Shown here piece by piece: positions 407 to 11,561 of a stretch of DNA of 12,281 nucleotides (the first letter of the stretch is position 1; each line of letters starts with the position of its first letter). The notes below the pieces were generated by a model, which was not told where the DNA came from, did not search any database, and saw nothing but the letters and a program-made list of their open reading frames with translations. The position numbers and the translations under genes are program-made. The stretch is from Leucogyrophana mollusca (taxonomy: Eukaryota; Basidiomycota; Agaricomycetes; Boletales), in the NCBI GenBank assembly GCA_021014945.1, contig MU266824.1, positions 1-12,281 of the forward strand, written 5' to 3'.

Positions 407-654
407 TGTCGAAGATATTAGGTGTAAATCTTAGAGTATATTCGACGATAACTACACAGTATATATAGTGAATGATAATGGTGCACAGACCAGGTGAACA
501 TATATGTACGAGTTGTTGTACTACACATGGAAAGCATGAAAGGAATCTATCTAAGTATAACTATGATACTAGAATGTTCCAGTAGTCCATACTGGCTATG
601 ATAAGTCATATACTAACATGTGATAAGGAGAAATCATATACTACATGTTCAACA
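407..654 (-). repeat. 3' LTR of the copia element (248 bp)
   Basis: Begins tgtcgaagatat and ends acatgttcaaca, matching 6987-7235 over its whole length. It follows the polypurine tract in the sense of the element and so is the 3' LTR. Terminal inverted bases are TGT/ACA, extending to TGTYGAA with one mismatch. Compared with the right LTR, three of eight substitutions lie at CpG sites (TCG here against TTG there; CTG and TCA here against CCG and TCG there), in keeping with methylated-cytosine decay in both copies after insertion. Confidence 0.95.
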
Positions 655-665: not shown

Positions 666-2061
666 CTAAGTAGCCGAGTTGACTAAGCCCAAGTCTTTGC
701 AGAACTTGATATGCTTTTGGAAAGCAAGTGGCTTTGTCATGAGATCCGCCATTTGGTCTTCCATAGGTACAAAGAATAATTCGGCATGGCTGGCTTCAAG
801 GAAGTCCCGTATAAAATGGTAACAGATATCAATATGCTTCGTCCGATGGTCCTGAGCAGGATTAACTGCAAGAAATATTGAGCCTTGATTATCTCCGCAG
901 ATGGGAGTAGGCTGTGGCGAGTCAAATCCAATTTCTCTTTGGAAGGACCGAAGCCAAGAGAGTTGACGACAGGCATCAGACATAGCCATATACTCTGCTT
1001 CCGTACAAGACAGTGCGACTGTCTTTTGCCGTCTTGAGACCCATGATACCACTGTGTCGGCTAATAGGGATACGAAGCCCATAGTGCTTCTTCTGTCGTC
1101 TTTGTCACCGGCCCAATCTGCATCCGTATAACAGATAAGTCCCGATAGGAGTCCACCTTGATAGAGAATTGCAAATGTAATCATGTGATTCAAATATCAT
1201 AAGATGTAAATTCCAGCACGGTAATGCTCTTGATTTGGATGAGCACTGTAGGATGCTAGTTTGGTGACTGCATATGCAATGTCAGGCCGTGTGCCAAGCA
1301 TGACATATAATAATGTGCCAACTAGGGATTGGAATTTGGTTTGTAACCGAAGGTCAACACATGTGTTGGGGTCTGATTTCCTAAGGTTAATTCCTGATGG
1401 AAGTGGAGTACGAGCAGGTTTGGAGTTCTGCATCTGGAATGTTTCTAGGGCATCCTGAATATATTTTTGTTGATCAAGGAAAAGCTTGCATTCTTTCCTA
1501 TCTCTTCGGATACGCATTCCTAAGAATAATTCCGCAGGTCCAAGATCTCGCATCTTGTATTGCTCCATCAAGGCCTTCTTGATGTCGTTGATTTCTTTCT
1601 TGGATGATCCCATAGGAAGTAAATCATCAACATAAAGAACCAAGATTAGACTTCCTTTCATTTTCTCGTAAACGTAAATGCCTGTGTCCGAATGAGTTCT
1701 GATGAATCCCATATCGAGTAACGTCTTATGGATCTTTTTGTTCCACGTGAGAGAAGCTTGCTTCAGGCCATATATCACCTTCCACAATCTACAAACTTTC
1801 TTCTCTTGCCCTTTGACGACAAAACCTTCTGGTTGTTCCATATATATCTCCTCGTCTAATTCTCCATAGAGGAATGCCGTTTTAACATCTAACGCTTCTA
1901 TTTCCCAATCTTCTAACGCTGCATGCGCGAGTAGGAAACGAATAGATTCGAAGCGTGCGACAGGAGAGAAGTTTTCTTTGTAATCAATGCCTTGAATCTG
2001 TGTGAACCCTTTGGCGACTAATCTAGATTTTCGTCTGCCATCTGATTTGACTGAAGACCCA
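666..2061 (-). pseudogene. copia pol, reverse transcriptase - RNase H portion
   Basis: C-terminal part of the inner polyprotein, which copies the element's RNA into DNA. The frame is open from about 2061 to the TAG at 668-666, apart from one TGA at 1199-1197. Read from the start it has the copia RT palm motif DVKTAFLYGEL, the downstream EQPEGF and YGLKQ motifs, the catalytic YVDD (1634-1623), and the fingers/thumb region ending near the SLVGTLLYVMLGTRPDI motif. RNase H follows with TDADWAGD, the TEAEYMA motif, GDNQGS and TKHID, so its acidic residues are all present. At its upstream edge (about 2051-2054) it is out of frame with the preceding segment; loss of a GT dinucleotide from a short AGTGTC repeat would explain this. 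Apart from those two lesions the domains look complete. Confidence 0.93.
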
Positions 2062-3640
2062 TTTGGGCTTTATGGTCTTCCGACCCGGAGGTAAATTGAC
2101 TAATTCCCAGGTTCCATTTTCCTTATGGGAATTCATTTTGTCCTGCATTGAATCCTCCCACTCTTTTCAATCAGGGAGAGATTGAATTTCCCAATAAGAG
2201 TTAGGTGCTTTGGTAACTGATGCCAGAAGAAGCTTATGAAGAAGGGGATTTCCCGCTTCTAGAACATCTTGCTCTACTATCTTTGGCATAGAATCCATCT
2301 GTTCGTCTGGATCTTCTATATCCATATTGTCACCTAAGTTAGGATGACATTCCTGATCTACTGGATTACAATCTCCATAGGTGTTATTTTCATTTCACCA
2401 AGGATTACGTCCAGCATTCTCACGTCTGGGTCTAGCGGGTAAAGCTTCTGGAAGTTGCCTTTCCAATGGATCAGCAGGTGGAGGTGCTTCTCCTCACCAG
2501 TAATGTGGATGTGGATGATTATATTGACGTGGATTGTAGTATCTAGGAGGTGATACAGGTTGACATGGTGGATTTCTAGGAGGACCATTGCGTGGTATAG
2601 GACGTATAGGTCTAGGTGGACATGGCGGAGGGCCAGGGTCTGCCTGCCTAGGTTCTTCTTGCCTTGGTTCCTGTGGCTCAGGGTCAACAGGTTCTTCGGC
2701 TTGTTCCGGTATCGCGGGTTCATCTTGTTCAGGTGGTGATTCCTGAACTTGAGGTTCTTTGGGCATAGGAACAGGTTCGTCGTCATCCTCTTGTGGAGGT
2801 GGAAGTGCTTGTTCCTTGTGTGGTTGATTGTTTTGTTTGTTTGGGTATACAGATTCATTGAAGGTTACATCTCGGGATAGTACTATAGTACGTCTTTCCT
2901 TGTCCCAGAAATGATAGCCTTTAGAGCCTGGCTCGTATCCAACGAATACCATAGGTTTTGCTTTTACGGCTAGTTTGTTTTGCCTTCGTTCTTTCTGTAT
3001 ATGGACATATGCTAAATATCCAAATACACGGAAATAGGATATATCCGGTATGGTTCCATTCCAGAGTGTAATAGGACATTTCCATGTGGCTTGTCTGATT
3101 GGTTGATGATTATAGATATGTACTGCCACTTCTATAAAGAGTTTCCAGAGTCCATTTGATAAGCCAGCATCATGACGCATTGCTTCGGCTTTTTCCACAA
3201 TGGTTCTTTGGAATCGTTCTGCTCGTCCGTTTTGCTGAGGAGTTTGTGGCATTGAGGCTTCTCGTTCAATTCCAGAATTGGCTAGTGGACGATCAAATTC
3301 GGCTGATAAGAACTCCCCCCCTCGATCCGAACGGAATCTTTTCAGGGTGGATTCGAGTTGATTTTCAGCCCAAGTCTTGTAACTTTGAAAGACTTTGATA
3401 GTGTCCGACTTGTTCTTCAGGAAATACATTATTCCAAAAGAAGAATAACCGTCGAAGAACATTGCAGTCCATTTGTAGCCATCTATTGATAGATTTGGGA
3501 ATTCATCGAGATCCGCATGTACTAATTCTAGTAGTTTGGTCGCATGGGAAGTTGAGGGTGGGAACGGTAAGCAATGCGATTTTCCGAATTCACAACCTTC
3601 ACATGGTTTATTTTCAGAAGGAAGTTTGATATCCAGAGGT
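2062..3640 (-). pseudogene. copia pol, integrase and linker to reverse transcriptase
   Basis: DDE integrase that joins the element's DNA to the target. The frame, upstream of the internal ATG at 3462, begins near 3637 with CEGCEFGK, the second half of an HHCC zinc-binding motif. Catalytic residues are Asp at 3513-3511, Asp at 3327-3325 and Glu at 3219-3217: D-61-D-35-E spacing, as usual. The core is followed by a GYEPGSKGYHFW-type copia motif and a very Pro/Glu-rich linker (about 2830-2500, with PPPCPPRPIRPIP), then the start of the RT domain (TWELVNLPPG, KPKWVF). Three in-frame TGA stops break the linker and RT N-terminus: 2496-2494, 2397-2395 and 2169-2167. It is shifted relative to both gag-protease (near 3634-3637) and RT (near 2051-2054). 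Confidence 0.92.
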
Positions 3641-5047
3641 CTTTAACCAATTTAGGAAGCTTTTTTAGAGCTTGTTTCCCAGCATGTCCAAAACGTCTAT
3701 GCCACAAGTCGTATTCAGAAGGAGCTACAGCATTTACCGAAGTAAAGCGCTTCTTCATACGATTTATAGGATTATAGATGTCTGCATTAAACCAATGCAG
3801 GGTATCTCCATCACGGTGCAATTGACCAGTAATAAGAAGACGTCCATTAGGTTTGTCCCAAATATTTGTTTCTTGCCCATATGAAGCAAGATATGCGCCT
3901 TTTCCCAGAGCTTGATTATTTGAGAATATTCTTCCAAATGCTTCTGGTACATAAATAACAGGTTCCAGCGTGACTTGAACTTCTCTGCCTTGGCCGTTGA
4001 TGTGCTTGAGAATTACAGCACCATGACCTAAAATGGCAATGTGGTGATCCTTACCGGCTAATTTTGCTTCGCCTGGTTTAGGGAAATCTTTATACCACAA
4101 GAAGTCGTCTTTGTGACATGTCACATGTTGAGAACAGCCAGAATCCATGAGCCACTCAGTTGATTCACACACCGAATACAAGGAAACGGAGATGGATTGA
4201 GACTCGGATACTGTTACATCTGGCATCGAAACTATTTCTAACGAATTTAGGAGATTCTGTCCAGAAGACTGTCTGCCGGAGTTATTCGTTCCGGAAGGGT
4301 TGCCTTTACCCTTCCCTTTCCCTTTCCCTTTGCCTTTGCCGCCGCTTTGATTCCCGCCAGCTTGTCCAGAGGAAGATGGCCTGCCATTCTCCCAGTGCTG
4401 TTCAGTGGTGTGGTTTGTCCTCCCACACTTGTCGCACTTTTTCTTTATGGGGTTAGTATTGGAAACCCTGTTAATCTGGACTTTATTAGCTGACCTGCGT
4501 GATTCCTCTTCAATGATTTTAGGAATGATGTCAGACGGCTTAATGGAGGATACCGTAAGCGTAGCCATCAGTGAGGAAATTGCTGACAAATAGCTTTGAG
4601 GTAGCGCATTGCAAATTTGAAGCGCCATGAGCTGATCGGAAATTTCAATCCCGCTGTCTTTGGCTAGAGATCTTCTGTTCTCCATTTCGGAGATCTGGTT
4701 CCGCATGCTCTTGTTGGCGTCAAGTTTCATCTCCATGAGTTCTTTATAGTATACAAATGCGCCCAAGGTGCCCTTCGCTCCATATTTGGACTTGAGTTTG
4801 TCCCAAACATCCTTTGCGCTTGTGGAACTTCCGATGTTGAATCAGAGAGTGGATTTCATATAAAGTTCCATTGCACCTAAGGCACATTCCTTTTGTTCGC
4901 TTGAAGTGGCACCAGGATCAGTGATGGCAGTATAGCAACCTGCCATTCGGAGATAACCCCTCATGGCAGATGACCATGTTTCGTAATTTGTGCCATCAAA
5001 TGCGACAACTGATTTTGGGCTTTGGAAAGATCCGTGGAAGAAGCCAT
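3528..5047 (-). pseudogene. copia gag and protease portion
   Basis: Gag forms the virus-like particle and the protease cleaves the polyprotein. The proposed start is the ATG at 5047-5045 (MASSTD), but after about seven codons it is one base out of frame with the conserved gag reading (SPKSVVAFDGTNYETW), so a 1-base loss near 5025 is inferred. Conserved parts in order: the FDGTNYETW/AMRGYL N-terminus, a TGA break at 4844-4842, a helical capsid-like stretch, a zinc knuckle at 4436-4395 reading C-X2-C-X4-H-X4-H (His for the usual last Cys), a Gly-Lys repeat tract, the protease active site DSG (4145-4137) in the context WLMDSGCSQHVT, and the pre-integrase WHRRFGHAG motif. The frame then shifts near 3634-3637 and runs out at 3528. 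Confidence 0.92.
4295..4342 (-). repeat. Gly-Lys repeat tract in Gag (hexamer microsatellite)
   Basis: On the + strand cccttt units recur in tandem with variants (gccttt), encoding GKGKGKGKGKG and flanking Gly/Ser-rich sequence right after the zinc knuckle. The strong positive charge next to a zinc knuckle fits RNA binding by the nucleocapsid. Tandem hexamers are prone to slippage, so the number of units probably varies between copies. Confidence 0.75.
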
Positions 5048-5049
5048 TA
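5045..5049 (-). promoter_or_regulatory. Overlapping stop-start TAATG between ORF2 and gag
   Basis: On the minus strand the TAA of the 161-codon upstream frame (5049-5047) and the presumed gag ATG (5047-5045) share a base, giving TAATG. This arrangement is known to couple translation by termination-reinitiation in some LINE elements and fungal viruses. The bases before it are CT-rich (ctccttctatatc), like a fungal 5' leader, so ordinary initiation on a separate mRNA is equally possible. Confidence 0.4.
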
Positions 5050-5532
5050 TAGATATAGAAGGAGTTTGAGATGATGAGGAAGCGAAGAAGTCGGAGATGA
5101 ATAGGTAACAGGAATATGATCGTGAGCTTTGAAGGTATTTTTATAATCCCTTCGCCAATCGCGTTCCAGCCAGTTGAAATAAAGACTGATATGGTAATGA
5201 TAACCAGCAGTCTGGCTGTGCGGTCCACAAACAAAAGGTTTAACAATAGAACCTTTGGCTTTTCGCGTAATGATTTTATCCCAATCCTTTTGTCGTTCTT
5301 CTTCCGTAAAACTGTTGTATGTTGAGCTGCCGACCCCTTTATAGATATATGTGAATTGTTCTTCTGCTGTATATCCTGCAGAGTATGGGTAGAGAATGCT
5401 CTGATCGTAGGAATTGTCTAGTTCTGGAGTGAAATCGTGTTTTGTGGGAAAGAAGACGTATGGGTGTTGGTGATAATATGGCGTGGGATATAAGGCGTGT
5501 AATTTGATTGACGGCGACTCTGTGGAGGCCAT
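5047..5532 (-). CDS. ORF2 of copia 5' region: unidentified 161-residue protein
   Basis: An unbroken frame between ORF1 and gag on the gag strand. The ATG at 5532-5530 follows a TAA in frame 24 bases upstream and has G at +4 (ccATGG), so the start is well set; the stop overlaps the gag ATG. It begins MASTESPS, resembling the presumed gag start MASSTD. The protein has no other Met, is very rich in Tyr and His in its first half (LYPTPYYHQHPYVFF), and has a basic middle (ERQKDWDKIITRKAKGS) and an LERDWRRDYKN stretch. No signal peptide or membrane segment is seen. I recognise no family. It could be an accessory protein, a captured host fragment or a regulatory upstream frame. The last 25 or so codons resemble an ordinary CT-rich leader, so the real protein could end differently in other copies. 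Confidence 0.5.
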   Translation of the reverse strand: MASTESPSIKLHALYPTPYYHQHPYVFFPTKHDFTPELDNSYDQSILYPYSAGYTAEEQFTYIYKGVGSSTYNSFTEEERQKDWDKIITRKAKGSIVKPFVCGPHSQTAGYHYHISLYFNWLERDWRRDYKNTFKAHDHIPVTYSSPTSSLPHHLKLLLYL

Positions 5533-5766
5533 GGAAGAAATCTTGATTTAGAGACGACGAGACCCCCCTGCTCCAAAGAGTTGTGGATCAATCCAAACGT
5601 CTAAGAATTACTTCTGACAAGAGGCCCCTTCCACAAGCAGCTGCCTCAATCCGAACAGAGGTGCTTTTTGAATCACACGATGACAGGATAGCCCGTATCA
5701 ATGATGACAGCACAAGAACCAAATCTGCACAATGATTACTCAAATTGTGGGACAATCTAGAGGGAT
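5533..5766 (-). other. Spacer between ORF1 and ORF2 of the copia 5' region
   Basis: No coding frame of note. It contains no ATG on the minus strand. Bases before the ORF2 ATG (TCTCTAAATCAAG) loosely resemble a fungal branch site plus 3' splice site, and a GTACGA donor-like sequence lies near the end of ORF1, but no convincing intron of normal fungal length joins the frames. A C-run (accccccct on the + strand) lies near 5565. Confidence 0.4.
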
Positions 5767-6945
5767 CTAAGGTTCAGTGGGGCTTTCCGCGTGGTGTGGG
5801 CGAATTTGAGCAAAAAGAAGCTCGTACTGGAAAAACCGATCTTGTAGGTTCAAATGAAACCAGGCAGCGAATAAATTGGGTTCTAAAGCTGCGGATGGTT
5901 CTTCCCAATGATATTCTTGGATTTCCCTAAAGACACTGTCGTATCTTGAAGGGAAAACAATCCAATCTGGGTAAGAGCCATCAGGAAGTCGAGCGTGTTC
6001 TTCAAAAAGTTTGAATTCTAAATCAGAGGAATGAGAAGATGCGTTATCTTCAGCGTCGGCGAAATCCGAGTCGTAAGTGATGCAGCCTGGGATAAATTCC
6101 GGAGTGGGAAGACGACGAGGAGGTACTGGGATGTATTGAAGGGTAAGTCCTTGAGAAAGTTGACCTATGTCTTCGTTGTCAGTAAAGCCGTAAGGGTCGG
6201 TAAAAGAGCCAACGTCTCCGTAAGTTGCAATTGAACGGAGGAAAAGATAATAAGCGGGCCAAGGTTTGGTCCTTGGGTTTTGGTCTGGGAAGACGCTGTC
6301 AACGTCAAGTGGATCTCCCAATTCGTAGGGAGCAAATGTGTCGTAGTTGAAGTGGTCAGTGTAAGAACCCAACTGTAGGATATGTTCCCATTGCCACTCG
6401 CATACTTGGAGATAGGAGGCGCAGTGGTCATTGATGGTGGGATAACCGCCTGTTAAAAACCTATTGAAATCGTAAAACTGCTGTGGGAGAACTTCATATT
6501 CAATGAGTCGTTGTTGAACTTGATTTGCAATGTGAAGTTCAGCAAGGAATAGGTGTAGGCGATCGTGATACCCAGGGTTTGCTACTCCGTCAAATAAAAC
6601 CGTTTGCTGATTGAAGACAAGATAAGGAGCAAGCTCTTCAAAGCGAGTCCAAGGACAAGTGTCGACGTAGTCTGGAAGAGGTTCCCAGTCAACGATGTCT
6701 TCAGGAAAGGCTCCCAAAGTAAATAGTATGGGAGTGTTAGAGTCAGCGATGTATGGAGGAGGGTTTGGACAAGGTAGTGTGCGATGATTGGGAGTATACC
6801 ATATGTTCAACCAGTGTTCTGTCGAATCGGATTCAGACAGAATGCGTTCAACTGCTTCTGCATTGACCGAGCGTAGTTGTTGCTGTTCTTGACGAGTGCA
6901 ACGAGTAAAGAAGAAAAGATGCGCGGTTTGAGCTAGAAGATCCAC
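5767..6945 (-). CDS. ORF1 of copia 5' region: unidentified 392-residue acidic protein
   Basis: A 392-codon frame starting 42 bases after the LTR edge, on the gag strand, and unbroken although gag-pol carries five stops. The listed start is a GTG (6945-6943, atcGTGGatc); no ATG occurs in frame anywhere from the upstream TGA to the TAG at 5769-5767. The start may be a mutated ATG, a non-AUG codon, or supplied by splicing. The product is acidic and rich in Tyr, Trp and Phe, with a Gln/Glu-rich N-terminus (CTRQEQQQLRS), Pro-rich turns (CPNPPPYIAD, IPVPPRRLPTPEF) and a Ser/Asp-rich segment (DAEDNASSHSSDLEF). No signal peptide, membrane span or zinc motif is visible. I recognise no family. At least two CGA codons (about 5989 and 6509) remain unmutated. 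Could be an accessory protein, a captured host gene exon, or a fortuitously open leader. Confidence 0.5.
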   Translation of the reverse strand: MDLLAQTAHLFFFTRCTRQEQQQLRSVNAEAVERILSESDSTEHWLNIWYTPNHRTLPCPNPPPYIADSNTPILFTLGAFPEDIVDWEPLPDYVDTCPWTRFEELAPYLVFNQQTVLFDGVANPGYHDRLHLFLAELHIANQVQQRLIEYEVLPQQFYDFNRFLTGGYPTINDHCASYLQVCEWQWEHILQLGSYTDHFNYDTFAPYELGDPLDVDSVFPDQNPRTKPWPAYYLFLRSIATYGDVGSFTDPYGFTDNEDIGQLSQGLTLQYIPVPPRRLPTPEFIPGCITYDSDFADAEDNASSHSSDLEFKLFEEHARLPDGSYPDWIVFPSRYDSVFREIQEYHWEEPSAALEPNLFAAWFHLNLQDRFFQYELLFAQIRPHHAESPTEP

Positions 6946-6964
6946 GATGAGTTGAGTGAAGTAG

Positions 6965-6982
6965 TTAGAGCACGGGGCTCAT
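6965..6982 (-). other. Five-codon upstream frame created by the primer-binding site
   Basis: Because the primer-binding site pairs with a CAU anticodon loop it must contain ATG. Here that ATG (6982-6980) opens MSPVL followed by TAA (6967-6965). It would be among the first AUGs met by a scanning ribosome on the genomic RNA. No function shown. Confidence 0.35.
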
Positions 6983-6986
6983 AACC
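6970..6986 (-). other. Primer-binding site matching initiator tRNA-Met anticodon arm (half-tRNA priming)
   Basis: The + strand reads gcacggggctcataacc directly against the LTR. This is not the 3' end of a tRNA but the D-side-to-anticodon region of eukaryotic initiator tRNA-Met: ggg-ct-CAT-aa-cc gives stem, loop and CAU anticodon. Drosophila copia and yeast Ty5 are known to prime from such cleaved 5' halves. The primer would end at about tRNA position 39-40. Confidence 0.75.
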
Positions 6987-7235
6987 TGTCGAAGATATGA
7001 GGTGTAAATCTTAGAGTATATTTGACTATAACTACACAGTATATATAGTGAATGATAATGGTGCACAGACCAGGTGAACATATATGTACGAGTTGTTGTA
7101 CTACACATGGAAAGCATAAAAAGGAATCTATCTAAGTATATCTAAGATACTAGAATGTTCCAGTAGTCCATACCGGCTATGATAAGTCGTATACTAACAT
7201 GTGATAAGGAGAAATCATATACTACATGTTCAACA
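6987..7235 (-). repeat. 5' LTR of the copia element (249 bp)
   Basis: Matches the left LTR end to end; begins tgtcgaagatat and ends acatgttcaaca on the + strand and is followed by GGTTA. It borders the primer-binding site and is therefore the 5' LTR that drives leftward transcription. It has one extra A in an A-run (cataaaaagg) relative to the left LTR. Its outer edge also supplies an ATG (7226) that is in frame with the outer gag remnant. Confidence 0.95.
7040..7047 (-). promoter_or_regulatory. Likely TATA box of the copia promoter
   Basis: The 5' LTR contains TATATATA in the minus-strand context cactaTATATActg, 53 bases before the LTR's internal edge. A start 25-35 bases downstream would leave a short R/U5 of roughly 20-30 bases. 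The same motif is in the 3' LTR near 460-467. Confidence 0.5.
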
Positions 7236-7240
7236 GGTTA
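7236..7240. repeat. Target-site duplication, right copy (GGTTA)
   Basis: Identical to 402-406 and directly abuts the outer base of the right LTR. Confidence 0.93.
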
Positions 7241-8560
7241 TTTTCTATCCTTCCCTCTCTGACCTCATCCCTTGACAATGTTCCCACCTTTGATGGATTA
7301 TATTCTCGCTACAACCTGGGGTATGTCGATATAATCTCACATATGATGGAAAATGCAAGCTCGTCATCCCAAACACTCGAAAACACTCGAGAAATCAGTC
7401 TGAGCATCACTGCTCAAGCAAATCAGGTCGAGGCCTGTCTCGATGCCATCAAACAATTCAAACATGGAGACATCACCTATGCAGATGTGCTCAAAACCAT
7501 ACACAACACTCTTGTTAGAGCAGTGCCTGATGATTCCAGCACCGATCCTTCGTTCAAGGGAGCGTTCTCCACATACCTCGGGATGCTCGATGCTGTTAAT
7601 TCTTTGCATTGGGTCGCCGTCAAACAGGGAAAGGGGACAAATAGAGCCAATGAAGAAGAGGAAACTGAGGGGAGAGGTCCTGGAATGGGGGAGGAAGAGA
7701 CAGAGGACTCAAGAGCCAACAAGGAGACTGAGGTTGTTGAAGAGTCACAGCCCAAGCATTGGAAGGTTGACAAGACTAGGTTTGTGTGGATCCAACCAGA
7801 CACGCTAGCCCGAGCAAGACCTGTCGACCCCATTGTCCAGCAAACAATCAACGCCCTCTCCAATTGGGCAAACAACCCTTTCTTTGTTCGATCGAGACTC
7901 CTTCTTGCCCCAGGGTGCCCTGACTTCCCAGCAGATCAGTGGCTCAACATCTGTCGAGGAAATGTCATTGACCTTGACAAGGTGTTCACCACCGTCTATA
8001 CGACTGACCTCAAGCAGAAACAAACCCATGACATTGGAGACTTCCAAATCTCCCTTAAAGTGTCAAAAACTAATTGAGACGTTCGAAGTTTCAGGGAGTG
8101 GCTCATCGCGTATGCAAAGTACGTTAGGGCCCTCACCTTCATCATGCCCTGGGTCCACGAGGAGCAACTCGGATACCAGGAGTTTATCATCCAGTCCTTC
8201 ACTGCCATCAGCGTTGAGCATCACCTCCAGGTCATTGAGTTTGACAAAGCCTGTCAATTGCAGGTGTCCCATCAGAAACATCTCCGGCTCAACCACATCT
8301 CCAATTTCAACGACTTGCAAACCGTATACCTCACCTCATATGGTATGGTGGCGAGCAGATCATCAGGGACCTCATCCAGTGGTGACAAAGGAAAGAAAGG
8401 AGGATCAGGGTGACGTGAGCCTTGTCACAATTGGAACTGAGGCAAGTGCAGTAAGTCCCCTGCAGATTGTCTCCACGAGCATTGTTGCGACCTCTGTGGA
8501 TGTTGCGGAGCCCACAAACGCACCGAATGCCCCAACGTGTCCGCTGGCAGGTCTGCCTGA
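7236..8560 (+). pseudogene. gag of outer element, distal part (with CCCH and knuckle-like zinc motifs)
   Basis: Continues the gag begun at 233. After the insertion point come FSILPSLTSSL, a GYVDII segment, a helical region, a very acidic stretch (about 7650-7750, EEEETEGR...GEEETEDS), a conserved-looking region (DKTRFVWIQPD, then FREWLIAYAKYVRALTF) and a Ser/Gly/Lys linker. The C-terminus has a C-X7-C-X6-C-X3-H zinc finger (about 8420-8484) followed by a C-X2-C-X5-H-X4-C knuckle-like motif, as expected for an RNA-binding Gag. In-frame TGA codons at 8075-8077, 8411-8413 and 8438-8440 break it; each is one C-to-T step from CGA. The TGA at 8558-8560 may be the true end or a fourth such change. 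Joined to the 5' piece, gag would be about 498 codons. Confidence 0.8.
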
Positions 8561-8603
8561 GCCCAAGTACAAACAAGGAATGGTTTGGTGAGATAGTGGG
8601 GAT

Positions 8604-10325
8604 GTGCACAGTCGGACCGTGATGTGGACTGAAACGGCGGAGGCCCTACTGAGACCACCGTCCCATGAGTTCAATAACCTTGGCGCTTTGCACACCATCG
8701 CTCTCCATCCTGATCTTTTTCAAGTCTCAACTCCTATCAACGTCGATCTTTTTGAATCCCTTCTGTCCTCCCATCCCAACCACCCCTTTGTTATTTCTGT
8801 TTGCCGGGGCCTATGCGAGGGGTTTTGGCCCTTCGCTGATACTAATCTTGGGTCGTATCCTGTAACATGGGATAACTCTGATCAGATAGCAAAGGAGGCG
8901 TTAGCTGGGCAATATTCGTGCGTGTTCAGTCTGGATTTACTTCCCGGGATGTACAGCATGCCTACTCACATGGTTCCTAAACCAGGAGGAAATTTTCGGC
9001 TTATAACCAATCACAGCACTGGAGAGTACTCACTCAATTCTATGATTTCCCGAGAAAGTATAGTGGGAGTCACACTAGACAACGTCCGGGACCTTGGCAA
9101 TGCTTTGTGCAGGCACTGTCGTCTATACAGTAATGAATTCCTGCATCTCTGGAAAGCTGACGTCATGGAGGCATATTGACATATGCCAATGCACCCCCTC
9201 TGGCAAATCAAACAGATTGTCTCCTTTGAGGGCCAACATTGGGTGGACTGGAAAAATGTCTTCGGGGGGCGAGCGTCACAACAAATTTGGCATACCTTCA
9301 TGGCCCTCATCCTCTGGATTGCTGTTGTCCGACTCTGTCTTGTGGCCTTCCTGTATGTGGACGACTCTTTCTCATTTGAACGAGGAGGAGTTGTGGCCTA
9401 CTACGCTCCATATAAAAAATATCTCCCGCACAGTCTTGGGTCCTTACTCGAATTATGGGACTCACTTGGAATTTCACATCACGAGGCCAAGCAGGTTTTT
9501 GGATACAAACTACCCATCATTGGGTTTGAAGTCAACCCTAACGTGATGTTGGTACAGATATCAGACGAATCACGTAAAAGGTTGATTGAAAGGTTGATGG
9601 GGTTCGCAAAGTACAACAAGAGGTGAAAATTGAGGGAGTTTCAGAGCATTGTGGGCGACCTTAATTGGGCCCTGAACGTATACCCTCTGCTGCACCCGGG
9701 CCTGTGTGCTATCTACTCTAAGATCGTGGGCAAACAAAGCCCATCGGCTCCCCTCTGGATTAACCATGCCGTTGTCGAGGAACTTCTGTGGGTTGTTCAT
9801 CACCTCACCACCTCTGAGGGAATCTTCTTCTTAAAATCAGTCCCATGGATGGCATCTTCAGCGGCTCCTGACATTTTCCAAGTCATGTGCGATGCTTCTG
9901 GCGTAGCAATGGCTTTCTGGTACCCTAGCCTCGGGCTTGGTTTCCAGTTGCTGTTACCCCCTCACCCTTGGAGGGGGACCATCCTCTTTCACGAAGCCTT
10001 AGCTGTCTGCTCAGCCATTCACGAAGCTGGGCATCATTTTCCCCGTGGGTCACGCCTTGCCGTCTTCACCGATAACATGAACACTGTCCACATGTTCAAT
10101 TCTCTGGCCGCCGATCCGGATTACAATCCCATTCTAATCTTGGCAGTAAATGTGATCCTTGCGTCTCGCATCAATGTGCACATCTTTCACATTGCTGGTG
10201 TCGATAATATTGTTGCTGACCATCTCTCGCAAAACCAAAATGTCCTCGCTGAGCGTGCAGCACCCAGGCTGGTGATTGAAACCTTTCAACCCCCACAGGA
10301 TGTGCTGGGGGCAGTCAAAAAATGA
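8604..10325 (+). pseudogene. pol of outer element: reverse transcriptase - RNase H
   Basis: Copies the element's RNA and removes the template. One frame throughout, with TGA breaks at 9177-9179 and 9624-9626, both explicable as CGA to TGA. RT motifs in order: VPKPGGNFRLITNHS (about 8970), LWKADVMEAY with the first catalytic Asp just before the first break, and YVDD at 9354-9365, followed by LWDSLGISHHEAKQVFG. RNase H has MCDASG, FHEALAVCSAI, FTDNMNTVHMF and VADHLSQ, so the D-E-D-D residues are present. It ends at TGA 10323-10325. The ATG at 8604 is the first after a TGA at 8589-8591; that TGA could itself be a mutated CGA, so the original start may lie further up and overlap gag in another frame. 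Confidence 0.88.
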
Positions 10326-10514
10326 ACTTCAGCGTGAATGCCAGGCAACCCTATCGGTGGAGTGGGGCTATCTGGAACAGCCCGACAGGCTGTAGCTGGC
10401 TTGCTGAAGGCTCTCGAACGCTCCGAAGGAGCTCACACCGACCCAAACAGCAAAGGTGGTGGTGGTTGCAGTGATCCTAACCCTAAGTGACATGAGACCT
10501 ATCTAAGTATCTAG
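10326..10514 (+). other. Spacer between pol and recombinase
   Basis: No coding frame of note; the recombinase frame is closed by a TAG at 10512-10514. A perfect 6-bp hairpin with a 5-base loop lies at 10377-10393 (acagcc/ggctgt). There is no room for the methyltransferase-like domain found at this point in DIRS1-type elements. Confidence 0.55.
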
Positions 10515-11561
10515 GACTCCAACGACTCCTCCGAGACCTCTGGCACTCCCAGCCAGGTCTCCTCTGACCAGGTCTCCCCACCACATCGGGAAGCCTGGCC
10601 CCTGGAGTGGCTCATACACGAGTGCTCCATCATGCTTGGTTTGAGTCTCAGTCTTGCAACGAATGCAGCATATTCCTCCGCACTCAGCTCATACATCTCC
10701 TTCTGCCACGCACACAATTTTGACTGCTCCCCAACACCCGAAACCCTCTTGTTTTTTGTGACATACATGTCTGCTCATATCAACCCTCAGTCTGTCGCAA
10801 GTTACCTATCCGGCATCATAGACAGTCTCCTCCCCTTTTATCCTGACGTGAAGGCCACATGGGGTTCAGCGTTGGTCAAGTGGACTTTGCAGGGTTGTCA
10901 TTGCTGCTTCGGGACCCCAACAAAGCGCAAACTACCTCTCACTCATGATGATCTTGTACGTGCAGAGATGTCACTAACATGCCCCCTGTTGTTTGACAAC
11001 CTATTGTGGGTCGTTCTCCTCTTCATGGGCTTCTTTGGCCTGCTGCGCCTCGGGGAGCTGGCTTGGCCCAACCCATGTGTGCTTCATGATTACAACAAGT
11101 TGTCGTTACGCAGTTCGGCCACCTTTGGCGAGGACTGGTTCCAGTTCGCGGTGCGTGATGCCAAGTCCAACTCACGTTTTGAGGGGGACGTCATCCGTAT
11201 TCAACGCTCTGCTCTTGCGCCCGACCCTCTGTCACATTTCCTCTCATACTTGCATGCACATGATGGCCGTTTCCCATTTCACCCTCATCTCTGGCTACGT
11301 CAGAACGGGTCTATTCTGACGCGCTCCTGGTTCCTCGGTTGTCTCCGTTCTATATTCCCCACTGCCATTTCTGGACACTCGATGCAGGCTGGTGGTGCCA
11401 CCTCATTGGCGGCGGCAGGTGTTCCCCCGGCCCAGATTCAGGCCATCAGGCGGTGGTCATCAGGTAACTGGCAACATTACATCCGCAAAAACCCTGTGCT
11501 TTTGCAGGGGCTTCTCTTCAATGGACATGGGATACATGATCCTCCCTTTGCTAATGTTTAG
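10515..11561 (+). CDS. Tyrosine recombinase (integrase) of outer element, catalytic Arg II replaced by Gln
   Basis: Inserts the circular DNA form of the element by site-specific strand exchange. The frame is open from 10515; the first ATG is at 10632 (MLGLSLSLATNAAYSSALSSY), but the residues before it (EAWPLEWLIHECSI) look like part of the domain, so the true start may be a non-ATG, a lost ATG or a fusion with an upstream exon. N-terminal SAM-like domain: AAYSSALSSYISFC and SVASYLSGI. Catalytic domain: Arg I in GLLRLGEL (codon 11046-11048), His in GHSM (11376-11378), Trp in RRWSS, and the Tyr nucleophile in HYIRKNP (11478-11480). Arg II, expected three residues after the His, is Gln (CAG, 11385-11387), one G-to-A step from CGG. 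The frame has no stop but is probably inactive. The stop is TAG at 11559-11561. Confidence 0.88.
   Translation, partial: DSNDSSETSGTPSQVSSDQVSPPHREAWPLEWLIHECSIMLGLSLSLATNAAYSSALSSYISFCHAHNFDCSPTPETLLFFVTYMSAHINPQSVASYLSGIIDSLLPFYPDVKATWGSALVKWTLQGCHCCFGTPTKRKLPLTHDDLVRAEMSLTCPLLFDNLLWVVLLFMGFFGLLRLGELAWPNPCVLHDYNKLSLRSSATFGEDWFQFAVRDAKSNSRFEGDVIRIQRSALAPDPLSHFLSYLHAHDGRFPFHPHLWLRQNGSILTRSWFLGCLRSIFPTAISGHSMQAGGATSLAAAGVPPAQIQAIRRWSSGNWQHYIRKNPVLLQGLLFNGHGIHDPPFANV

Follow-up and report, generated by a model that had tools for sequence, protein, structure and literature searches.

In the usual description, long terminal repeat (LTR) retrotransposons produce Gag and Pol from a single frame or via frameshifting, and proteins encoded ahead of gag raise the question of how ribosomes reach gag. 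The case considered here is a Ty1/copia element, now decayed, that lies on the minus strand of a 12,281-nucleotide stretch (hereafter the window) of the wood-rotting basidiomycete Leucogyrophana mollusca (Boletales; contig MU266824.1 of assembly GCA_021014945.1), in which two frames of 392 and 161 codons (P392 and P161) lie between the primer-binding site (PBS) and gag. An earlier note on this DNA had described both as unbroken beside a gag-pol with five stops and three frame changes, and had suggested either accessory proteins of an undescribed fungal copia lineage or captured host sequence. Both frames were recovered at the same coordinates without internal stop, and an independent reading of the frames agrees on the decay of gag-pol. 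We propose, with a probability of roughly 0.7, that the element's RNA carries three cistrons, P392 and P161 having weak non-AUG starts and gag being reached by leaky scanning. With somewhat less assurance, we favor the wider view of a fungal copia lineage that would make orphan accessory proteins from GUG/CUG and ACG codons in a leader, about 2 kb at most, purged of AUG in all frames. Such a leader would be the sequence fingerprint of one answer to the question of access to gag.

Copies are labelled by contigs of the same L. mollusca genome (C###), and the window copy is C491. They were gathered by genome searches with P392 DNA, the P161 region and the LTR, by protein searches and from maps of 13 stretches, and all counts are lower bounds. 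P392 is found on at least 10 contigs (C491, C148, C446, C486, C448, C371, C412, C520, C541 and C416) and P161 on at least nine (C491, C148, C416, C541, C400, C412 and C486, and partially C446 and C448, whose leaders have lost part of it). In C541 (5000-10110) the leader is interrupted, past P392 and before the P161 region, by about 1.8 kb of unrelated sequence, and in C400 (4000-13900), which has a P161 copy, the stretch from just past the gag start to the Pol_BBD region is missing. Nine of 28 LTR matches reach the PBS; C201 stops there with its contig, and the other eight of eight continue into P392, which is also still present behind the damaged PBS of C520. A copy passing from the PBS directly to gag, which the earlier note had named as evidence against itself, was not seen among the LTR matches with a PBS that were followed. 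Of the remaining LTR matches, those of C163, which lies at the end of its contig, and of C357, which belongs to the 3' part of a copy, were the ones followed, and neither protein occurs in the fetched stretches of these two or of C201. All 12 P392 matches and all nine P161 matches in the protein search of the genome lie within element copies, and P392 and P161 are genes of the element.

The ratio of nonsynonymous to synonymous substitution rates (dN/dS) is 0.14-0.33 for P392 in 14 of 21 pairs, with dS saturated in the other seven, and 0.15-0.32 for P161 in all 21 pairs. It was computable in 35 of 42 pairs overall, and each of these lies at 0.14-0.33, far below 1. P392 of C491 shares about 35% amino acid identity with that of C416/C541 over the aligned part and gives no blastn match, whereas the LTR, P161 and gag of these copies are about 80-83% identical. 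Because the frames are conserved as protein down to about 35% identity and have low dN/dS, they are not chance frames, and these alignments show both to be under purifying selection. P392 has no in-frame stop in seven of 10 copies, one in C446 and C448 and three in C520, and P161 has none or one in each of nine copies; frame changes occur additionally in C448, C371 and C520. The earlier note had asked whether the frames stay open through selection or through a scarcity of mutable CGA codons. The low dN/dS bears out selection, and few CGA codons (two in the P392 of the window copy, three to five in each of five further copies) are a minor factor at most. The suggestion of accessory proteins of an undescribed lineage thus held up on every point compared, namely presence in all evaluable copies with LTR and PBS, low dN/dS, few stops and no description found. 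Captured host sequence, carried without function, would suit two proteins without known domains; yet neither protein occurs outside elements in the L. mollusca genome, no relative outside this species was found in the protein database, and selection of this strength is at odds with a functionless passenger, so that we consider this explanation extremely improbable.

From the P392 start to gag, ATG is strongly underrepresented in the leader in all three frames. ATG counts were compared with 1000 dinucleotide shuffles in nine stretches of eight copies, comprising the whole leaders of C491, C148, C446, C486, C448 and C416, two parts of that of C541 and the last 1005 nucleotides (nt) of that of C412; C371, C520 and C400 were excluded as short, rearranged or P161 only. 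Observed counts and shuffle means were 8/22.1 in C491, 15/29.6 in C148, 0/12.0 in C446 (not one ATG in 1419 nt), 9/23.4 in C486, 2/13.4 in C448, 2/21.4 in C416, 1/9.3 and 1/10.8 in the parts of C541 and 1/10.8 in the partial leader of C412, and in none of the nine did a single shuffle reach the observed count or fall below it (0/1000 each). The depletion goes far beyond that of the antisense triplet CAT, which stands at 77-92% of its shuffle mean and is matched or undercut in 16 to 264 of 1000 shuffles. In gag-pol, ATG is at or above expectation (103/91.2 in C491, 88/87.1 in C148, 94/86.3 in C486).

A second shuffle (2000 replicates) held protein and codon usage fixed and counted only out-of-frame ATG. 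For P392, observed against expected counts were 0 versus 9.4 in C446, 1 versus 11.0 in C416 and 1 versus 7.2 in C541 (0/2000 each); the effect was weaker in C491, C148 and C486 (25, 19 and 57 of 2000 shuffles), and four gag-pol control frames had out-of-frame ATG at or above their means. In frame, the P392 of the window has no methionine codon at all, and this is so in five of six copies, with one such codon in C148; control frames have 10 in 412, 6 in 322, 9 in 214 and 7 in 175 codons. Since one triplet is removed in all frames, over both open reading frames (ORFs) and the spacer between them, a constraint from scanning is suggested, whereas splicing, an internal ribosome entry site (IRES) or an amino acid preference would predict no such loss. 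The reason for such exclusion would be that a leader AUG diverts ribosomes from gag. ACG to ATG change is the expected trace of CpG decay, and 30 of 39 leader ATGs are aligned with ACG in one or more other copies, none being common to more than two of the aligned copies. Because CpG decay would leave just this pattern, the copies probably began with fewer leader ATGs than they have today, the polarity ACG to ATG being presumed.

The starts of both frames are consistent with weak initiation, GUG and ACG being weak start codons. The first codon of P392 is GTG in seven of nine copies, CTG in two and ATG in none, with A at -3 and G at +4 in each of the nine. An in-frame TGA lies inside the window PBS, 12 codons 5' of the GTG, and eight of nine copies have an in-frame stop within the PBS upstream of P392 (C520 differs there). 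AUC or AUU stands directly 5' of the GTG/CTG in eight of nine copies and is an alternative candidate start. P161 begins with ACG in four of seven copies (C148, C486, C412 and C541), with ATG in C491 and C416 and with ACA in C400; ACG would be the older state, because ATG and ACA are both CpG decay products of ACG. We infer that both frames are translated. Scanning 40S subunits would pass a five-codon upstream ORF (uORF) at the PBS, or translate it and then leave; a minority would initiate P392 at GUG/CUG or at the adjoining 5' AUC/AUU, another minority P161 at ACG, and most would arrive at the gag AUG as the first effective AUG. Our guess is that the two products are low relative to Gag and accessory, for example particle-associated or directed against host silencing. 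The earlier note had not remarked on the scarcity of ATG in every frame, on the non-ATG starts or on the gag junction described below; beyond extra frames, the leader would be one shaped for leaky scanning.

Access to gag might also be explained by splicing, with Gag made from a spliced RNA that has lost the leader and P392 and P161 made from unspliced or their own spliced RNAs. Splicing is known in Ogre elements (PMC6317226), and six of eight stretches contain donor-like words in the leader. GTACGC and GTGTGT are common to C148, C486 and C416 (GTGTGT also to C541), so that splicing is possible in these copies, which counts against scanning as the route there. Nevertheless, no donor-like GTRNGY is present in U5/PBS of the window or within C448 and C412, none in the leader is common to all copies, the nearest YAG lies 93-138 nt before the gag ATG in eight of eight stretches, and splicing needs no removal of ATG in all frames. 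A donor at the conserved end of P392 (DWNGEY) was considered and rejected, since among four copies aligned GT is absent in C486, C416 and C520 and present in C148. Splicing over the leader is therefore disfavored, and we hold it to be unlikely. An IRES in the leader serving gag could accommodate two spacer types without long frames; on the other hand, an Rfam scan of 4900-7300 gave no match, and an IRES gives no reason for ATG loss upstream of the entry site, which makes it very unlikely.

The junction of P161 and gag brings in a further route. In the window the gag ATG (5047-5045) shares one base with the P161 stop TAA, and the TAATG junction of this copy (C491) is also present in C486, C412 and C448, while the gag ATG lies 2 nt after the P161 stop in C148, C446, C416, C541 and C400. 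Ribosomes ending P161 could thus reinitiate on gag at UAAUG, with little or no leaky scanning; such termination-reinitiation has a precedent in the non-LTR element SART1 (PMC5902531). Reinitiation alone would leave the ATG depletion over P392 and the spacer and the non-ATG starts unexplained, and would make the level of Gag equal to that of an ACG-started protein; as the sole route it is quite unlikely, less so than an IRES but more so than splicing. By analogy, reinitiation may contribute to the synthesis of Gag in some of the copies.

Several observations weigh against leaky scanning from non-AUG starts and have to be set beside it. P161 starts with ATG in the window copy and in C416, and the TAATG junction of four of nine copies also suits termination-reinitiation. 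The ATG of the PBS uORF has a purine at -3, and scanning ribosomes must pass it; complementarity to the anticodon CAT forces this ATG on the PBS. GUG and ACG are weak starts, and the 1.9 kb to be scanned is about twice the distance in rice tungro bacilliform virus (RTBV). As for the depletion, the leaders of C491, C148 and C486 contain 8, 15 and 9 ATGs, for which decay is the presumed origin. CAT is mildly low in all nine stretches too, so that base composition may account for a minor share of the missing ATGs. For P161 by itself, synonymous shuffles show a weak effect (2 to 270 of 2000 in six frames), the frame being short, and C400, a decayed copy outside the shuffle test, has five ATGs in its P161 where about seven are expected by codon shuffle, without clear depletion. 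With regard to selection, CpG hypermutability raises dS somewhat, and the copies are related by descent, even if the P392 sequences of C416 and C491 give no DNA alignment.

Relatives of the two proteins were sought in databases. A profile search with the P392 alignment against about 5.8 billion proteins gave seven matches, all from L. mollusca, two of the seven deposited P392 relatives being labelled partial; the database lists six members of the family as L. mollusca hypothetical proteins. For P161, a single-sequence search of the protein database found no relative, L. mollusca included. Pfam gave no match for P392, P161 or five relatives, PHROGs matched P161 only at E 0.4, and the best PDB match of the P392 profile (E 0.068) was taken as chance. 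Comparison of P392 with P161 showed no relation. AlphaFold2 models reached a mean pLDDT (predicted local distance difference test) of 32.5 for P392 (8-sequence alignment) and 32.6 for P161 (single sequence) and are unusable.

The leader genes also differ from gag-pol in their divergence. Between C486 and the window copy, gag-pol is 91-94% identical, whereas P392 is 72% identical over the aligning part and P161 aligns only in its gag-side third; C486 and C412 have a different type of P161, which shares about 50% identity with the P161 of C491. The end of P392 varies as well, in that the motif SGNLNDGYAPDWNG(E/K)Y terminates it in C148, C486 and C416 and is absent from C491. Given this uneven identity, the leader genes appear to be mosaic or faster-diverging than gag-pol. 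Host-facing accessory proteins often exchange or diverge fast, and by this analogy we guess that P392 behaves likewise.

The window element is a Ty1/copia LTR retrotransposon, with LTRs and a target duplication, integrase before reverse transcriptase and a PBS for tRNA-Met (Table 1). Along the minus strand Pfam matches Retrotran_gag_2 (5.7e-11), then SH3_retrovirus (4.3e-28), then RVT_2 (1.1e-36); integrase before RVT_2 is the copia order, and the Ty3/gypsy order, with reverse transcriptase first, was not encountered. The in-frame stops of gag-pol lie near 4844, 2496, 2397, 2169 and 1199 and its frame changes near 5040, 3640 and 2050. The LTRs differ at 8 of 247 aligned sites in the window copy, 3 of 250 in C148 and 2 of 243 in C486 (8 gap columns), and the reverse transcriptase regions of C148 and C486 each have a stop already.

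Table 1. Positions of the copia element and its parts in the window.
Feature	Position	Strand	Remarks
5' LTR	6987-7235	-	direct repeat, sequence; TATA-like stretch near 7047; TG...CA ends
3' LTR	407-654	-	direct repeat, sequence; purine-rich tract 655-667 directly before
Target duplication GGTTA	402-406 and 7236-7240		outside each LTR; 5 bp
PBS	6970-6986	-	complementary to tRNA-Met anticodon arm, nt 28-41
Five-codon uORF ATG...TAA	6965-6982	-	inside/just past PBS; sequence
P392 accessory frame	5767-6945	-	392 codons; probable start GTG
Spacer P392/P161	5533-5766	-	two types among copies; no ATG in window copy
P161 accessory frame	5047-5532	-	161 codons; ATG start in window copy
Decayed gag-pol	669-5047	-	copia gag, Pol_BBD, integrase/SH3, RVT_2, RNase H region; 5 stops, 3 frame changes

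The PBS matches genomic tRNA-Met exactly over 10-16 nt in five copies, two of which were supplied without the first two PBS bases, and from its sequence we take this tRNA to be the initiator. Priming by an internal part of initiator tRNA-Met is a trait of Drosophila copia and is not universal in copia elements. A motif resembling the PBS complement, GGCTAGAGCGCGGGGCTCATAACC, occurs at four further places (twice in C322, and in C422 and C502), and the copy in C322:23900-24100 lies inside a palindromic repeat. As candidate tRNA genes two of these loci were tested, and ARAGORN and Rfam found no tRNA in C322:23900-24100 or C422:14760-14960. Beyond the copia element, window positions 7226-11561 (+) contain frames of a second decayed retroelement, with weak Pfam matches to RVT_thumb and RT_RNaseH at 9630-10325; the end of a 309-codon frame (10632-11561, +) resembles by eye a tyrosine recombinase as in DIRS/Ngaro, without Pfam match. 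The copia element sits on the 5' side of this second retroelement, with its GGTTA duplication.

If leaky scanning from non-AUG starts is correct, long-distance leaky scanning and non-AUG initiation in Basidiomycota become directly testable, and the AUG-purged leader would be convergent with those of plant pararetroviruses. Annotation that demands an ATG misses or misplaces such genes, and accessory genes ahead of gag may therefore exceed the record. Long ATG-free stretches from PBS to gag, used as a search criterion, would reveal further such elements.

How does this arrangement compare with known systems? To our knowledge, no LTR retrotransposon follows a three-cistron strategy with non-AUG starts and a leader purged of AUG, and our literature search, to which subscription papers were mostly closed, met none with an AUG-free leader. 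The C311 copia family of the same genome (reverse transcriptase 32% identical) shares the PBS motif GGTTATGAGCCCCG including its ATG, and has its gag ATG 267 nt past that of the PBS; the interval has neither a further ATG nor an accessory frame. The long leader is therefore not general to copia elements of L. mollusca, a comparison made at the 5' end of C311 only and leaving C502, C493, C527 and others outside; C302, considered as a further copia family, has a Ty3/gypsy-like frame by eye and was not used. In Ogre elements, ORF1 is located before gag. Ogre and other plant Ty3/gypsy LTR retrotransposons have additional ORFs, and the Ogre polyprotein is made with the help of splicing (PMC6317226), whereas the L. 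mollusca element is a copia element. The rice LTR elements Retrosat2, RIRE3 and RIRE8 have an ORF0 upstream of gag-pol that evolves faster than gag-pol; they differ in being Ty3/gypsy with a single ORF, and the accessible text mentions neither AUG depletion nor a non-AUG start (PMC3485330). In badnaviruses, ORFs I and II are free of internal AUGs and leaky scanning through both is predicted, yet these are plant viruses whose starts are AUGs in suboptimal context, unlike those of P392 and P161 (PMC5902531). The closest likeness is to RTBV (Caulimoviridae), also a reverse-transcribing element with a non-AUG first start and two AUG-poor ORFs before a third: ORF I starts with AUU, ORFs I-II have no other AUG over about 895-900 nt save the weak ORF II start, and translation is by leaky scanning (PMC3542737, PMC5902531). 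The likeness is one of organisation and does not come from sequence comparison. RTBV is a plant pararetrovirus with a structured shunt leader and ORF II at AUG, whereas here a fungal LTR retrotransposon has a leader of 1.4-2.15 kb with both ORFs non-AUG in most copies. For the shunt, the window has a short ORF and a fold of 6800-7020 with z -1.36. For upstream ORFs free of AUG, depletion is strong in nine of nine stretches and absence is strict only in C446, the others having 1-15. The scanned distance, if the reading is true, would exceed that of RTBV about twofold. LTR elements with accessory frames before gag and polycistronic scanning of the RTBV type are each known, and what would be new in L. 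mollusca is the combination of both.

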